Source of the DNA: [Phialemoniopsis] sp. UDSM-2020
Lineage: Eukaryota; Ascomycota; Sordariomycetes; Thyridiales; Thyridiaceae
Reading direction: 5' to 3'
NCBI GenBank assembly: GCA_018873225.1
Contig: JAEILZ010000007.1
Span: 2,604,001 to 2,668,000 of the forward strand
Length of the DNA stretch: 64,000 nucleotides
The notes under the pieces were generated by a model, which did no database searches, had not been told where the DNA came from, and saw only the letters and a list, made by a program, of their open reading frames with translations. The position numbers and the translations under genes were made by a program. Position 1 is the stretch's first letter; the number at the start of each line of letters is the position of its first letter. Shown here one piece after another: positions 6,986 through 55,642 of this stretch.

Positions 6986-9765
6986 CTACTTCTTCAGAAG
7001 CTTCTTCTGCTGGTCCTCAAGGTACTCCTCGTCCGAAGCATCAAGGATGTCGTACTCCTCGTCCGTCATGAAGCCGTCAGCAGAGTCGTCCTCAGCCCAC
7101 TCATCATCCTCCTCAAAGTCATCAATCTCCTCGTTGACATCGACATCAGCAGCAACAGAGTTAGGTGCGGCCTCTTCGTACATGCTTGCAATGGGTGACT
7201 CCTTCTCGAGTTTGGGGAAGATCATCTGGCTTGACTCCTCCGGCTTGGCAGGAGCCACTTCACGGGTGACCTCTGGAGCAATCTCCTGGACCTCTTCCTT
7301 GACAGGAGTCTCTTCCTTGGCGGGTGCTACGGGAGTGGCATTGACCATCGGGATCCGAGACTGAACAACAATATGGCACCAGAGACGGTCGCCGAAGCGG
7401 AAGCCATCCGGAGTAGTCAGACGCCAGTATGAGGTACGTTTGCCAAGCTGGCTCGGGGATCTCAGAGGCACGTGGAAAGTGCAAGTCTCGCCGGGGCCAA
7501 TATCCCGCGCACAAGGTCCACTCTCTGAGGCGGCTAGGAGCTCCTTGGTGCCAACGGGGTGAAGGTGGTTGACGAGGCCCATGAAGTCACCACCGACGAA
7601 CTTGATGCGAGTACCAGCGGGCCAGGAGACAGTGCCCTCATTCCGGAGAGTCCACGTCTGCTCAAACTCGCGGTTAGGAGCCAAACCAGTACCATCAGCG
7701 ATGGCATCCTCAACAAAGACGGCAACCAAGTCCTCAGGGGAAGGCTCCGACTTGACATCCTCGACGGGCTTCTCGACCTCAGCCTTAGGCTCGGGCTCGG
7801 GCTCACTAGGCTTGACATCGACCACAGTACGAACGGAATCGATGGCAATTCCTTGGTCTGTGACCGAAGTCTCTGTAGCCACAGAGCTCGTGGCCTCGTC
7901 ACGGACTCGGTCGCCCATGACGCGCATAGGCTTACCGTTCAGGTGCTCGCCATGCGTGCTCACACTGCAACCGCGAACGGGGGTCTTGAACTTGATAAGA
8001 GGGTGAGTCTTGTTGTGCGTGTTGGATGGGCAAGCTTCGCAGCTTGCGCAGAAGTCGGTGTCGTGGCAGACGGCGCACTTGTAGCGGTCGCCAACGATGT
8101 AGGTAGATCTAGCCTTGCTCGAGATGTTGCATAGCGGTCCATCGCAGCAAATGCCGAAATGAGTGGGCTTACCAGGCAGGCGGGCATTGCTGGTCTCCTG
8201 GATGGGCTCATAGAGTGGGACGAAGCGGTGGTTGGGGTGAATGAACCCAGCATCCTCATGACACTGAGAGCAGTAGTCCCAATCGGGGCAGTCGAGGCAC
8301 TTGTAACGGACACCAGTGATGTAGCTGTCACAGCTGTCGCAGATGGCATTGTGCACACGATCTCGACCGGCGGGGAGACGCTTAGAGATGCTAGCGCTGA
8401 AAATTGTGCCGGCGACGGCTGGAACGAAGGCATGCTTGGGGTGGTGGCCATGCTGGTCTTTCTCAAAGCAAGCTTTGCAGAGATCAAAGTCATAGCATGA
8501 AGTGCAGTGCACGAACTCTTCCTCGGCCATTTCTGAGATGCAATTGTTGCAGGTTCGCACGACATCCGACTGATAGAGCAGGTGGCTGATGGAGGGTGCA
8601 ACCTGGGCAACGCTGCTGGCATTGCTCGAGTTCAGCTTGTCGATTGTCTCGACATTGCTCGAGACCGGCTTGGCCATTTTATCGAACCAATCGATGGCCG
8701 TCGCCGTCGCCGTCTTCGTCTTGGGCTTGGGTGTGATCCTCTCTGTGGTGCTGTTGATGATGACACCATTCTTGACAACACGCTTAATCAGCCAGTGAGA
8801 GGCATCACGGCAAGTGATTCCCTTCTCGACGCAGTCAATGCAGAGGTCGAAGTCGCCATCATCGCAAGACGAGCAGTGGTAGTGAGCCTCGGGAATAGTC
8901 TCATCGCAGCTGTTGCAGCACACGGCATAGCCTGTCCGGGGCACATCATTCTGACAGGGTGGGTCGGTGATCATGGGAATGGAAATGAGACTCTCGCGAG
9001 GCGCAGGCTTTGCCATCTCAGCTGTATGTAGCGGCGGAGGAGGACCGAATGAAGGGTGGTACGCAGGGTTGGAAAGGCGGCCAGGGTCGGAAAGGCGGAC
9101 AGGCAGAGAACGAATGCTCGAAGTAGGTTGGATGACAGGTCGTGTCATTCCAGGGCGGGCAGTGGCCGCCTTGAGGCGTGCGAACTCGGCCGACTCGTGG
9201 GGAATGGCCGAAGGGAACGAAAGTTGCTCTCTCAACTTGGGAGGTACCATGAGATCGGGGTATCGGGGACCAGACTTTGCGTCCTCAGGTACATCCTCTA
9301 GGGTGACGGGCTTGGGCACGACCTTGCGAGCCTCAGCTTCGCCCTGCGAATCGTCGGTCGGTGTTTGAGAAGAATCGCTCTCCTCGTGAGCGGCCGGAGC
9401 CTCCTTCTGGGTGGTGACTCGCAGCTTGAGCTTCGATTTGGCCTTGGCCGCCCGATAAAGCTGCTTGTAGGCAGAGGTGTTCTCAGGTGTCAGGGTGACA
9501 TAGGTTGCGAGCGAGTCCGAGTATCGCTCGATCAACGTATCGGTGCCCTGGGCGATGGGAAGAATGGCTCGGAGCTGTTGGGGGATGGCTTATCAGTGCA
9601 TGCTCGCCTTTGTTAATCGGGAAATTGCTGAGCATGACGTACCTTATCTTCGAGATCGCTGGCGCCGAGATCACGCAGCGGAAGCTTGAGCTTCTTGACG
9701 TAGCCATCATGGTTGACCTTGAGGCTGATGAGGGTATCTGGAGATGCTGGGGTAGGGGCAGCCAT
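6986..9765 (-). CDS. NBR1: NBR1-type selective autophagy cargo receptor (PB1, 4 x ZZ, FW domain)
   Basis: Exons 9765-9643 and 9574-6986 (68-nt GTACGT...CAG intron, phase 0) give 903 residues. The first exon is needed to complete the PB1 domain: ISLKVNHDGYVKKLKLPL is spliced to LRAILPIAQGTDTLIERY (about residues 12-95). Four ZZ-type zinc fingers follow at about 259-306, 383-426, 448-494 and 513-569. An FW (NBR1-like) domain at about 655-780 contains TWTLRNEGTVSWPAG. The acidic tail includes EEYDIL at about 880-885, a good fit to an Atg8-interacting motif (aromatic-x-x-aliphatic preceded by acidic residues). Known NBR1 proteins link ubiquitinated cargo, peroxisomes or vacuolar hydrolases to Atg8. 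I see no UBA domain, as in other fungal members. Family assignment is firm; the Atg8 motif is an inference. Confidence 0.9.
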
Positions 9766-20009: not shown

Positions 20010-21466
20010 CTAGGTAGAAGAGCTCGTTCCCAGGTTCTGCGTCTTCTCAATTTTGGGAACACATCCGAAACGATTGTTGCCCTGATCCCAAATCTTGGAG
20101 TGCGCTGTTAGCATCATGATGACGTCCCCTCCGCTGAATACATAACAGGAGAACTTACAGCATATATGGACTTTAGGAAGGTGTCGCCGAGGATGTCAAA
20201 GGGGTTGTCTCCCCGGGACTGGACTCCCCCGTACCAGTGCTGGTCATCAGCCTGCGCAAACGCGAGATCCTCCTTCTGGATAACGAACTCGTGATCACCG
20301 ACAGCAATGGAGAATTCGGGGAGCTGGTCTGCCGTGACACTCGTGGGAAAGACATAGCCCTGCTGCTGGGAATCGTACTTCGCTCCTGGGATCTGCTTAT
20401 ACAAGGCGTCGCACACCTCGTCAGAGACAAGAGCAAGAGTGGTTCCGGTATCAGCAATGGCCTTGTTGTCAGCAAGCGTCATCTTCTTGCCGCTGATGGT
20501 TGCCGATGCCGATGGGAACATCCAGAAGCCTTGACTATTGTCAATATCCGTCCAGATGATGTCTTGACCCGATGATTTGACGAGGTCTTGGTCGATGTAC
20601 CCAAAGGTATAGAAAGACTTGGCGTCCTGATCACGAGAGCTGTAGAACGCGGAAGTGAACAGCTCGGCTTCCTTGGGAATATCGCCCTGCGATATCATGT
20701 TGGCGACAGGAGTATTCTGTGGATCCGGCTGACCACCAGTCTTGATGGTGTTGATGGCCGGGAAGGCAAGGCCCAAGAGACCATCGCCAGTACCTTGAGC
20801 GAACTGATCGGCAAGCTTGTCTGCCATCTCAACAGCCTGGTTCTCAATCTTGAGGTTACCAATCGTGACCGTGTCGTAGCCGACCTCTCCAGAGGCCGAG
20901 CTGCCGTCACCATACGAGATCTGCCATGTCTGGTCATCGGATGCCTTGAAGGTCGAGGACCTGCTTGGGTCGTAGATCTCATGATTCTGCTGGAGTTGGG
21001 AGTCAAGCTTTGGCGAGAAGACCTGACTGTGTCAGGACGATTCACAACAGTCTTGCAGAATTCAGAGACTTACCCAGAGATCTGATGAGCCTGTGTCGAA
21101 GTCAAGTCTGACAGTCTGTGCTGGCTCGCCGATGCCCACCTCGCACAGGTACATGGAGTCGTTTTGGACATCCTCGGCAGTGACCTCTCCCTGGTATTCG
21201 CCATCTGGGCCGTCCTTTTTGACGAGGACCTTTTTCATACTCACGCGACCTCCCACGGCCACCCTCTGATTAGCGAGGCCTCGCTGGTGAATTCGGTTGA
21301 CATGGCCATATGGACCAGGCTTGGTGGGTTGAAAGCCGAAGCGGTTGAGAAGATAGACGTAGGATTTGGTACCATGGGCCTTGTAATTCTTGTTGGGGAC
21401 AGCGATGACTTTGATCAGACCCAAGTCCTGCCTGAACTTATTCTGGACCGAGTAGATTCCGTCCAT
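20010..21466 (-). CDS. Pepsin-like (A1) aspartic endopeptidase without an obvious signal peptide
   Basis: Exons 21466-21074, 21022-20159 and 20093-20010 give 446 residues; introns are 51 and 65 nt. The two catalytic motifs are present: [10 protein letters not shown] (Asp at about 124) and [11 protein letters not shown] (Asp at about 322), with the downstream pepsin blocks WQISYGDGS and GLLGLAFPA. The last intron has a GCTAAC branch site only about 10 nt from its acceptor and joins FLKSIYA to [10 protein letters not shown], a normal pepsin C-terminus. I preferred the ATG at 21466 (MDGIYSV, A at -3 and G at +4) to the upstream one at 21499. Neither start gives a hydrophobic signal peptide. The region before the catalytic core is basic and could be a propeptide. 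The enzyme may act inside the cell or use another export route. The protease call is firm; its location is uncertain. Confidence 0.85.
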
Positions 21467-51353: not shown

Positions 51354-53118
51354 ATGCCTTCGAAGAAGTCTCGGCGTTCGAGGTCGCGTGATAACCGTCT
51401 CTTGGAACCCCAGCAAGATCAAACCCCTCTTCCACTACGTGCCAAGCTACTCAATCGCTTTTATGAAGCTGTGATTATACTTGACGCCACAAGGTCATTC
51501 TGCACGCGACAAGCACCGCCCAAACCCGAAGGGTCAACAGAGAAGCTGAAAGGTTGCCCAGAGACTGCTTTTCAGAGTTTCGTCAACAAGATTTGTCAGG
51601 TCTGCGATGCGCACCCTTACGAAGGAGAAACAATCACCTCGTGTATGGTTCTACAGCACGGCAGTCATGTTGAATACCGGCTTGCCTCTAACAGACGCAA
51701 AGAAGCGGACTTGACCGCTGCCAAAGCCTTCTTGACTGATCTGCTGAGCCCCCTCGGCACTGCCGACGACAGAACACTTGAACGCGAATCCTTCTTCTGG
51801 CATATCATGAACAAAGTATTATTGTTTTGCCGACCCAGGGTCGAAGTCAAGTACTTGGCGGCGCTGAGAAGACAGATCCCCCATTGCAGAGAGCGAATAG
51901 GGCATGAACGGAGCTCAGATGGTATTATGACCTTGCAATGAACCCCCTCAAACAGACATACTGACGCCTTATAGCAGTGGCTCTTACCGCCAAGCTTCAA
52001 GAGGTGGAAGATGCTTTGTCTGCTCATACGAGCCAGGAGAGTCCCGGCAACAATACATGTGAGCAATTATGCTTCGAAATTCTTCTTGCCAATAAATAGT
52101 ATTCATAACGACGGCAGACCTTCACACCTGCAAGCAACTCATTCTGCTTCTACGGGATATGATGAACTCCCCGCTAGACGATTTGATCTACCAATACGCC
52201 AGTCCTGGCAGATTCGAGCAAAGGGACTCTTGGTGCAGCATGCGGCACGCCATGGGCCGCCTGGTGTCTTACTACCGCGCGGTCAAGCACATCCTGTCGG
52301 CGCCAATGCATTGGCCCGAGCTCTTCCAACAAGAGTTTGAAGTCACCTTTCTCTGCTCCAGCGCCTCCTGGAGAAGCCCATTGAGGAAGAAATATGGCCT
52401 GCAAGGTCTGGCCCACGACATCATCGGAAGGATGACATCGGACCCTGCCAGACAAGACGCGGCCAGGACTCACGCTCAGAGACTCCAAGTGGCGGGATTG
52501 GATTGCACATTGGATGGCAAGATAAAAAGGAAAGCAGATGATCTGAAGCCCATTGTGCACTGCGAGTGCCTTCTGCTCCAGTCCCTACAAGACGAAGAGG
52601 GCGGCACCCACCCTACGCGCTTCTTCAATGGATACAACTATATCGGCTGTAGCAAGCCGACCTGCCGGCTATGCACGCTCTACTTCCAGGCCTCAGCGGC
52701 CGGAGTCAAGATTCGTCCTTCGCATGACAATTTCTACATCCAGTGGCGTGTGCCAGATATGTTCAACACCGCTGCTGCGACAGAGAAGGAGCGGGTCATG
52801 GACAACATGCTGAAGCACATCCGAGAGGAGGCATTCCGCGTTCTGTCAGAGAAGGTCTATTCCTTCAAGCGCTTCGACTCCAACACGGATGCCACTCACC
52901 CTACGTTCGATCTGCCGATGGCACAGCTTCCCGGGGTTGCGGAGGAGCTAGAGGAAGCAATTGAGGATCTGCACATTGGCAGCCCGAGCAGCAGTACTCT
53001 CTCTGCCGGGAGTCTGGAAACCGCCTTTTGCAATCGTAACGACTTGGGATCGAGCGAGCCTGAACATGGCAACGACAGCGAAGATGAGGATGATGGTGGC
53101 GGGGCCAAACTTGACTAG
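51354..53118 (+). CDS. OTT_1508-like deaminase-fold protein
   Basis: Three exons, 51354-51921, 51975-52058 and 52118-53118, give 550 residues; introns are 53 and 59 nt. The basic N-terminus (MPSKKSRRSRSRD) could be a nuclear signal. The C-terminal part has deaminase-superfamily zinc and catalytic hallmarks: HCE at 365-367 (IVHCECLLLQSL) and TCRLC with Cys400 and Cys403 (YIGCSKPTCRLCTLYF). That spacing and sequence fit the OTT_1508-like deaminase group expanded in filamentous fungi. By family analogy it could deaminate a nucleotide or nucleic acid base, or have become a defence or heterokaryon-incompatibility effector; none of this is shown. The tail is acidic (NDSEDEDDGGG). It ends 261 bp from the end of the repeat-peptide gene (tail to tail). 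Confidence 0.75.
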
Positions 53119-53379: not shown

Positions 53380-53912
53380 TCAAGCCTTGAAGGTCGTGAT
53401 CTTGTAAGGAAGAATTTGTCTCTCCTCATTGTCGCGAGCTTCATTCCCGTCACGCTTGAAGGTTGTGATCTTGTAAGGAAGAATCTGGCGCTCCTCGTTG
53501 TCACGAGCCTCAACCTCGTCGCGCTTGAAAGTAGTGATCTTGTAGGGCAAGATTTGTCTCTCTTCGTTGTCACGAGACTCAACATCATCTCTCTTGAAGG
53601 TAGTGATCTTGTAAGGGAGGATTTGTCTTTCCTCGTTGTCTCGGGACTCGACCTCGTCTCGTTTGAAAGTGGTGATCTTGTAGGGGAGGATCTGCCTCTC
53701 TTCGTTGTCTCGAGACTCTACATTCTCGCGTTTGAAGGTGGTAATCTTGTAAGGGAGGATTTGTCTCTCTTCCTTGTGAAAGGACTGTGGGATCTGTATC
53801 AGCTACTGGGTGACTTGACTTTTCAGAGTCAAAGTTGGGTTACCTCGACTGGTGCTGAAGAGACCAGAGCAGTGAGGGAAGCAAGTCCCAAGACGAAGAG
53901 GTCGGAACGCAT
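53380..53912 (-). CDS. Secreted Kex2-processed repeat peptide precursor (dikaritin/KEP-like)
   Basis: Exons 53912-53844 and 53793-53380 give 160 residues. Exon 1 encodes a signal peptide, MRSDLFVLGLASLTALVSSA with predicted cleavage before PVE. The 50-nt intron (weak donor GTAACC, CTGAT branch, ACAG) is required because the unspliced frame stops after four more codons. Exon 2 is a short leader (IPQSFH) plus six repeats on an exact 69-nt, 23-residue period. Each contains EERQ-ILPYKITTFK; five are followed by Arg, making a Lys-Arg Kex2 site, and the last ends Lys-Ala-stop. Spacers vary (ENVES, DEVES, DDVES, DEVEA, DGNEA) and contain RDN. Kex2 cleavage would release six near-identical peptides. 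The divergent UstYa gene about 750 bp away suggests the core (probably YKITTF) is cyclised. An unmodified signalling or cell-surface peptide is the alternative. Confidence 0.85.
53386..53772 (-). repeat. 69-nt tandem repeat array, six copies, coding
   Basis: The CTTGAA or TTTGAA landmark (plus strand) recurs at 53386, 53455, 53524, 53593, 53662 and 53731, exactly 69 nt apart. Copies differ mostly at synonymous third positions. The 5'-most coding copy is partial on its leader side. Confidence 0.95.
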
Positions 53913-54666
53913 AGCTACAGGCTTTGAAAGGCAAGGGTTGATATAGGGCTTTGTTGCTCTCGGGCAGTCAACTCAGCAAGCGAGGCAGTGTCTGCAAAGC
54001 AAACTTATATATGATCCACGGTTGAGAAGTTCTTGCCACCCTCTTTATCGCAATGCTTTTTCAGTCTAGGAAAATATCATGTATTTTCCCTTCCCGAGGT
54101 TCGTCAACCGACGCAACCCTCGCCCCTTTTCCCCTCTTCTCCAGAGGCTCAAGCGCGATAACCACCGCTTGACCAAGGCCCAATGACGCCCTGGATATAT
54201 ACACAGCTTCCCATTTGGACGTCGCGAAGAAGCACTGCGGCGTTGCTGGTGGCGGTAAGCGTATCATCGCCCCGTCGTGCGAAGCTTTCGCCTGCCCGAT
54301 GAGGAAAGTGCTATGGCGCACGACAGCGGCGCGAATACGGGATCTGCACCTGTCTGATCCGGCGCCATCTCTCGAGGCCGGATTATCGCTCGAGATCTAG
54401 CCGAAAGAAGCCCCAAATCTGAGGCCGTTCGGAAAGTCTTGCCGTGATAGAGATGCGCGGCGTCTGTCTCGTAAGTGGCGGCGAGGTTTGTCATTGTGTC
54501 GTTGATGCCGAGACGGGAGGGATACCTCCGCCCACTTACACGCCATCTCTCCGCAAGATCTCAACGCCTCTTTCATCCAGACCGGTTCTCTCCGTAGAAG
54601 CTTTCTTGTCCTTTGGCGCATTTTCCTATCCCAATTTTTCGAATCTCTTTCTGAATAACGATCAAT
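53913..54666. promoter_or_regulatory. Bidirectional promoter between precursor and UstYa gene
   Basis: 754 bp separate the two divergent ATGs. On the precursor side is a TATA element (54005-54011). Two CTCGAG palindromes lie 12 bp apart at 54371-54376 and 54389-54394, a possible dimer-binding site. No other gene is supported here. Confidence 0.55.
54005..54011 (-). promoter_or_regulatory. Probable TATA box of the repeat-peptide precursor
   Basis: TATATAA on the minus strand (within CATATATAAG), about 95 nt upstream of the precursor ATG at 53912. That leaves a normal short leader. Confidence 0.55.
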
Positions 54667-55642
54667 ATGGATGACATCAATGAGCGATTCAAGTCCTCAT
54701 CCTCAGAGGAATTCGAAGATGATGAACGAGCCGGTTTCTTGAACGACAAGCTCATCAAACTTCCGCTCCGAAGACCACAGAGACTCTCCCTTCTCGTATC
54801 AATAGTAAACGTCTTCCTCTTCATCATAACCCTCTCCTTATGGGCAAGCTGGTACTACAAGACACACCTCGTCCTCAACCCCGAGCTACGCCGGGCCTCA
54901 ACATATAGTAATACACCCCTTTTCCATAATGCTGTCCCCAAGTAGACCATATCACTGATTTCCAACTCTCTCAGGCCCAATCCACGACCTCTTCGACCTA
55001 AAGATGCACAAAGAAGTCGTAAACGGCACCCTCTTCCCCCGCCCCGACCAGCCCTCCGTCGCCCGCCAGCAGCCGCCCAACCCCGCCGCCGACGCCGTCT
55101 GGGACGAGTGGGAGCTCACGCGCCCTTTCCCCGTGACGGCCGCCCAGATCCGCGCCATGGGCAAGGACCCCTCTACAGTCGCCAAGCTCGAGGACAGCGA
55201 CTGGGGCCTCGGCGACGACGCCTACGCCGCCGTGCTCGACGTGTACCACCAGCTGCACTGCCTCAATTCCCTACGAAAAATCATATACCGCGCGCACTAC
55301 GGCGCGCCGGAGCTGTCCGAGGTGGACGGCATGATGGACGTGCACGTCGGCCACTGCGTCGACATCCTGATGCAGGCGCTGCAGTGCAGCGGCAACGTCA
55401 ACCTCATCACGATGCACTGGCTCGACACGCAGGACTTCCCGTTCCCGGACATGAGCATCGAGAGGCAGTGCGTCGATTTCGAGGGGCTGACCGAATGGCG
55501 GAGGGAGAACACGCTCGATATGGATAAGTGGTCGCGCGTGATGAGCAAGAAGCCCGCCGGGGTCAAGGAGCTCAAGGCGCCCGAGGAGTTCCACACGCAC
55601 TTTGCGCCGGGTAAGGTGCATGGGGGTCATGTCCATGGGTAG
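54667..55642 (+). CDS. UstYa/DUF3328 family oxidase (RiPP-modifying candidate)
   Basis: Exons 54667-54907 and 54975-55642 (67-nt GTAATA...CAG intron, phase 1) give 302 residues. An acidic N-terminus (SSSSEEFEDDE) is followed by one membrane span at about 40-62 (LSLLVSIVNVFLFIITLSLWASW). The rest is the lumenal UstYa domain. Both signature motifs are intact: HQLHC at 172-176 (VYHQLHCLNSLRK) and HVGHC at 204-208 (GHCVDILMQALQC). In ustiloxin, asperipin and phomopsin pathways UstYa-family proteins install the oxidative ring closures of Kex2-released peptides in the secretory pathway. Other DUF3328 proteins serve cyclochlorotine and unrelated pathways. Its divergent position next to the repeat precursor makes that peptide the likeliest substrate (inference). 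The His-rich tail (HTHFAPGKVHGGHVHG) is unusual and might bind metal. Confidence 0.9.

Follow-up and report, generated by a model that had tools for sequence, protein, structure and literature searches.

A putative minimal ustiloxin/asperipin-type RiPP locus with a new core peptide in a [Phialemoniopsis] genome

A 64,000-nucleotide stretch of DNA (the window: C9:2604001-2668000 of a 44.18-Mb genome in 11 contigs), whose introns and gene content fit its fungal origin, carries a two-gene locus in which a precursor gene encoding six copies of the core ILPYKITTFK stands head to head with a gene for a UstYa (DUF3328) protein. Judging from the sequence, we interpret it, with a probability of about 0.8, as a minimal ustiloxin/asperipin-type RiPP locus, by which the fungus probably makes a new cyclic peptide along a route known from other fungi. 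The core is new and the gene set unusually small; pairs of this kind have already been catalogued in large numbers. If the locus is expressed, it would provide a new cyclic-peptide scaffold whose mass can be predicted, and few systems would be simpler for testing a single UstYa enzyme acting alone: what one such enzyme can do has been a live question since copper dependence was shown for a member of the family.

The precursor gene and its divergent neighbour

The features of the locus, in window coordinates, are:

53844..53912, minus strand: precursor exon 1, with the ATG and a signal-peptide-like segment, MRSDLFVLGLASLTALVSSAPVE, including the hydrophobic stretch LFVLGLASLT
53794..53843, minus strand: predicted precursor intron, 50 bp, GTAACC..TACAG (GT..AG), phase 0
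53380..53793, minus strand: precursor exon 2, with six ILPYKITTFK cores, acidic spacers and the stop codon
53913..54666, no strand: intergenic region, 754 bp between head-to-head start codons, presumed shared promoter region
54667..54907, plus strand: UstYa exon 1, with the N-terminus and a hydrophobic, presumed transmembrane segment (residues about 40-58)
54908..54974, plus strand: predicted UstYa intron, 67 bp, GTAATA..CTCAG
54975..55642, plus strand: UstYa exon 2, with the DUF3328/UstYa domain
55247-55261, plus strand: UstYa HxxHC motif 1, HQLHC
55343-55357, plus strand: UstYa HxxHC motif 2, HVGHC

Exon mapping of both genes bears out the limits that a first-pass annotation had given for the locus (53380..55642), and the start codons, said there to lie some 750 bp apart on opposite strands, are divergent and separated by 754 bp. 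The repeat ORF, which has no Met of its own, must be preceded by another exon; with the two joined, the predicted product is a protein of 160 aa from two exons on the minus strand (53912-53380), with an alternative in-frame acceptor 9 bp further downstream. Its N-terminus is hydrophobic and then reads SSAP; the proposed signal peptide is a candidate judged from hydropathy.

The translation shows the six cores, five with Lys-Arg, that had been described. They recur with a period of 23 residues, and an R after five of them creates a Kex2-type KR site; the sixth and last ends in FKA-stop, without the R. Acidic spacers, for example DEVESRDNEERQ, separate the cores. TRF describes the same region as a 69-bp array of 5.7 copies (53386-53777), and neither a frameshift nor an internal stop interrupts it.

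Of particular interest is the pattern of variation among the copies: all nine core residues are the same in 6/6 copies despite 7 variable nucleotide sites (pS 0.51, pN 0.017, zero amino-acid changes), the non-zero pN being due solely to the routes that link the leucine codons CTN and TTG. The spacers, of which five were compared, are more variable than the core (pN 0.11, pS 0.84). When 10 random substitutions were simulated, an all-synonymous outcome arose in 0 of 200,000 runs. This pattern of substitution indicates that the core is under purifying selection. The EERQ preceding the core is also present in all six copies, the fully shared block being EERQILPYKITTFK, and conservation alone therefore does not set the N-terminal end of the core, which may be ILPYKITTF or, if cleavage follows the Arg, pyroGlu-ILPYKITTF. 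A back-translated core pattern, allowed up to two mismatches, hits these six sites only in the whole genome (reversed control, 0), and the repeat pattern is found in 0/698 ORFs from the remainder of the window and in 0/10,760 residue-shuffled ORFs from ten UstYa loci.

The core had been described as unrecognised, and it has remained so. A search of the 160-aa precursor against 5.8 billion proteins returned no relative at E ≤ 1e-3 or at E ≤ 10 among 6083 word-sharing candidates, and four overlapping core fragments had no match in the literature searched. In a local phmmer control, copies of the precursor with half of their residues randomly replaced still scored E values below 1e-35. This control covers the scoring step alone; neither the word filter nor the size limits applied to the database enter into it, and genes that lack annotation would escape the search. 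A Pfam match of the precursor to PH_17 was judged spurious (21.9 bits against a cut-off of 22.4, from a partial, 29-residue match within the repeats).

The neighbouring protein had been called a membrane-anchored DUF3328 protein with both HxxHC motifs. The domain (PF11807, E=1.8e-44) and both motifs, HQLHC and HVGHC, are present, and the anchor is deduced from hydropathy only. Its exon 2 is best matched by a protein of Thyridium curvatum (Sordariomycetes), at 83% identity over 94% of the query. Homologs numbered 181, of which 120 were listed; when 62 of those listed were aligned with the window protein, motif 1 was kept in 63/63 rows and motif 2 in 62/63. The third position of motif 2 is N in 56 of the 63 aligned sequences and G in only two, the HVGHC of the window included. 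An AlphaFold2 monomer model of exon 2 alone (221 aa; pLDDT 89.6, pTM 0.82) sets the two motifs on neighbouring predicted helices (88-103 and 118-138). Compared by description, this resembles CctR, which also has a double HxxHC on two helices and an N-terminal membrane anchor. According to excerpts of a 2025 report (PMC12435403), CctR is a DUF3328 homodimer that depends on copper, uses O2 and binds two copper ions through its HxxHC motifs. In contrast to what is proposed for the window, the substrate of CctR is a non-ribosomal cyclic peptide and its reaction a hydroxylation.

Divergent pairs elsewhere in the genome

The whole genome yields 34 PF11807 exon matches, which were grouped into 18 UstYa loci. 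Repeat precursors were sought only in the window and in the surroundings of UstYa genes, by a criterion of at least three similar 8-residue words before dibasic sites, which misses precursors with fewer repeats. Eleven loci (the window and ten others) were scanned over at least 20 kb and five over 3 kb. The scan found repeat precursors at five of the eleven loci in the wider set, and none at the other six or at any of the five covered over 3 kb. Apart from that of the window, the precursors are:

C1:514333-514785, plus strand: second precursor, five SPDILYNNAAGWG units before RKR
C8:1888139-1888747, plus strand: third precursor, nine VEPAYVWASPG units before KR
C9:490117-490602, minus strand: fourth precursor, eight ADYIYPIPPSVSPE/ADYIYPIPASDAPE-type units, seven before KR and one before KK
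C4:4051857-4052168, minus strand: fifth precursor, four LPQVYGAHQLKTKEDDF-type units, three before KKR

In all five pairs the precursor and a UstYa gene are transcribed divergently. The head-to-head gaps are 754 bp (window), 762 bp (C4), 924 bp (C1), 1538 bp (C8) and 1393 bp (C9); outside the window, the UstYa start codon of each pair was chosen by eye in six-frame translations. The C1 precursor sits between UstYa genes and is divergent from one of them; that on C8 adjoins a group of four UstYa gene matches. An antisense repeat match on the minus strand at the C8 locus was dropped, being the reverse strand of the same precursor. The precursors on C4 and at 490 kb on C9, like that of the window, have a signal-peptide-like ATG segment upstream in another frame. 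The cores of the other four are unrelated to that of the window, and a Tyr is present in 5/5 cores. The precursor at 490 kb on C9 contains YPIP, which resembles the phomopsin core YVIP. The five UstYa stretches share about 26 to 38% identity in their best pairwise matches, the C4 protein (38%) being the closest of the four compared with that of the window.

The occurrence of four further divergent pairs with unrelated cores in the same genome implies that the neighbourhood of precursor and UstYa gene is meaningful. A pairing by chance is unlikely: the probability of such placement is about 1e-5, or about 4e-7 with orientation included, figures that are rough and indicative only, given that they assume a total of 17 UstYa genes and an upstream zone of 1.6 kb picked after the data had been seen. 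A promoter motif common to the five intergenic regions was sought in the form of an 8-mer or longer present in at least four of them, and none was found; 17 shared 7-mers fall within the shuffled range.

Multiple pairs per genome are not new, since nine such clusters are described for Venturia inaequalis in the accessible part of PMC9632046. A description of the head-to-head layout was not encountered in the literature searched, a thin search of partial texts; the phrase 'divergently transcribed' occurs there in PMC6237848, where it describes norB and cypA in the aflatoxin cluster rather than UstYa genes. The five pairs suggest a search rule that could find precursors which gene annotation may miss: look on the opposite strand for a repeat ORF lying at most about 1.6 kb upstream from a UstYa gene.

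Known systems, the proposed pathway and its alternatives

In the consulted portion of Umemura 2020 (PMC7329392), 7878 Kex2-repeat proteins (KEPs) are counted in 1345 of 1461 strains; 1758 have a DUF3328 gene within 15 genes, mostly as the next gene, and Tyr occurs in 65.6% of the repeats of these DUF3328-associated KEPs. Le Marquer 2019, seen in part, is a comparable survey of such repeat proteins. KEPs are defined by an ER signal peptide and by at least three tandem repeats of at least 8 aa between KR, KK, RK or RR. The window precursor has a candidate signal peptide by hydropathy and six cores, five of them before KR, with a DUF3328 gene next to it (PF11807, E=1.8e-44; start codons 754 bp apart), and its repeats would place it with the KEPs that neighbour DUF3328 genes. 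The pairing of precursor and UstYa is treated as ustiloxin-type in the same source, and the first-pass reading of it as such is supported: both members are present, and four further divergent pairs occur in the genome.

The label dikaritin-type, which had also been applied, would hold only in the broad sense, for which a DUF3328 enzyme acting on the precursor defines the class, and not in the original sense of Ding et al., as both are outlined in excerpts of PMC12048977. The original definition is a five-gene set that includes a tyrosinase and multiple DUF3328 genes and also lists methyltransferase and transporter or peptidase genes. Tyrosinase (PF00264) is absent in and near the window, and the 64 kb hold one PF11807 match; the 30 of 67 window ORFs searched contain no methyltransferase, transporter or peptidase gene near the pair, an aspartyl protease lying about 32 kb off.

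Comparison with individual systems refines this picture. The loci of ustiloxin and phomopsin encode a signal peptide, for which the window precursor has a candidate by hydropathy, and, like the window locus, repeated cores before KR and DUF3328 proteins; their cores YAIG, YVIG and YVIP share with the YKIT of the window (ILP-YKIT-TF) a Y-x-I-x tetrapeptide, a motif short enough to be shared by chance; the ED that precedes Y in the EDYXI motif is absent from the window core. They differ in needing a tyrosinase for cyclisation, in having two and five DUF3328 genes (excerpts of PMC7329392), and in a core of 4 residues against probably 9 here. The nearest known gene plan is the small asperipin-2a cluster of Aspergillus flavus (aprA, aprY, aprR and aprT), which likewise has a repeat precursor, a single DUF3328 gene and, in the accessible text of PMC6514808, no tyrosinase. 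However, its core is FYYTGY rather than ILPYKITTF, and it includes a reductase and a transporter, of which there is none among 30/67 ORFs of the window. Aspergillus oryzae has served as the laboratory host for asperipin-2a. The epichloecyclins (GigA, Epichloe) are cyclic nonapeptides with an N-terminal Ile, an internal Tyr and a Kex2-type precursor, according to part of PMC9233826; the core predicted for the window is of the same length, likewise begins with Ile and has an internal Tyr, a likeness drawn by description.

A pathway may be proposed from these parallels. The precursor would enter the secretory pathway by means of its predicted signal peptide. Kex2 would then cleave after each KR, and a Kex1-type carboxypeptidase would remove the basic residues, to give up to five peptides ending in ...ILPYKITTF, from which further proteases would trim the acidic spacer. 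If it behaves as its family does, the membrane-anchored UstYa would act as a homodimer, with binuclear copper held by the two HxxHC motifs, and oxidise the core with O2, the product most likely being a side-chain cross-link at Tyr4. The calculated [M+H]+ of ILPYKITTF is 1095.645 if linear, 1093.629 with one cross-link and 1091.614 with two; that of pGlu-ILPYKITTF is 1206.677 if linear and 1204.661 if cross-linked. Tyr is the residue that is cross-linked in ustiloxins, phomopsins and asperipin-2a (excerpts of PMC7329392). By analogy, Tyr4-Ile6 is the favoured first candidate, because YKIT fits the Y-x-I-x of the ustiloxin and phomopsin cores given in that source; an Ile1-Tyr4 link, as in epichloecyclins, or one involving Phe9 would be the alternatives. 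The chemistry may nonetheless be closer to that of AprY, given that ustiloxin and phomopsin use a tyrosinase, that none lies nearby, and that the four-gene cluster of aprY lacks one in the accessible text of PMC6514808.

A bolder extension, possible though we would not bet on it, is that the locus is a self-sufficient two-gene RiPP pathway in which one UstYa, without a tyrosinase or a tailoring gene in the cluster, would form a new cross-link (Tyr4 with Ile6, Ile1 or Phe9) in a nine-residue core. The divergent layout, seen at five unrelated pairs of this genome, would then be the basic inherited unit, able to swap cores while keeping its shared promoter.

Other readings of the locus need to be weighed against a cyclising pathway. 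That the repeats belong to a decaying or unexpressed gene, or arose in tandem by chance, is very improbable. The R that would complete a KR site is missing from the sixth copy, the GTAACC at the intron donor falls short of a strong splice-donor consensus, and no homologous protein was found among the 5.8 billion searched; yet the six cores are alike with synonymous codon differences only, an outcome that led us to reject a chance repeat (0/200,000 simulations), the array is free of frameshifts and stops, and the UstYa gene is intact. It is also unlikely that UstYa alters the peptide by some reaction other than cyclisation, such as hydroxylation or halogenation. The enzyme need not cyclise, since DUF3328 enzymes can perform these reactions too: members of the family hydroxylate and chlorinate in the cyclochlorotine pathway (excerpts of PMC12435403 and PMC12048977), and the HVGHC of the window departs from the N found at its third place in 56/63 aligned sequences. 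In contrast, ustiloxins, asperipin-2a and phomopsins are all cross-linked at Tyr (PMC7329392, in part), and the Tyr of the window core stands in a Y-x-I-x context.

Equally at odds with cyclisation, and quite improbable in our estimate, is a linear secreted peptide, a pheromone-like signal or an effector, that Kex2 sets free, with UstYa a coincidental neighbour or one acting on another substrate. Such peptides are not exceptional: 6120 of the 7878 catalogued KEPs are without a nearby DUF3328 gene (excerpts of PMC7329392), and linear or minimally modified KEP peptides have been detected in Agaricomycetes (PMC9769878, in part). The locus itself has no nearby tyrosinase and no tailoring gene among 30/67 window ORFs. 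Against this, 5/5 precursors found by a scan of the window and the vicinity of UstYa genes are head to head with a UstYa gene, and mating-factor and pheromone KEPs, all but three, have no DUF3328 neighbour in the consulted portion of PMC7329392. A pheromone was rejected on the UstYa neighbour together with the Pfam results: at E ≤ 1 none of the five precursors, two of them searched as the repeat exon only, has a mating-factor match (MF_alpha or MF_alpha_N).

Neighbouring genes

The window has 67 non-redundant ORFs of at least 110 aa, and 30 of them were searched with Pfam. The neighbours among these 30 are mostly of housekeeping type (Cut8, Rad52, aconitase, UPF1), with no P450, methyltransferase, transporter, tyrosinase or other tailoring enzyme, and the sole protease is the aspartyl protease (20117-21031), about 32 kb away. 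The pair's own gene is the one PF11807 match in the 64-kb window. Genome-wide there are 21 exon matches to PF00264: the one on C9 is at 265 kb, whereas the window pair is at 2657 kb, and all are more than 100 kb away from each of the five pairs, the nearest being about 115 kb off, on C8. A single P_proprotein (Kex2-type) match is present in the genome. Rfam reports nothing at the gathering threshold in the window.

Two further genes of the window may be mentioned. An OTT_1508-like deaminase gene (52159-53118, plus strand) adjoins the precursor and is probably unrelated to it. An ORF at 6989-9589 on the minus strand combines ZZ zinc fingers with an NBR1-type Ig-like domain, and possibly encodes a fungal NBR1-like autophagy receptor.
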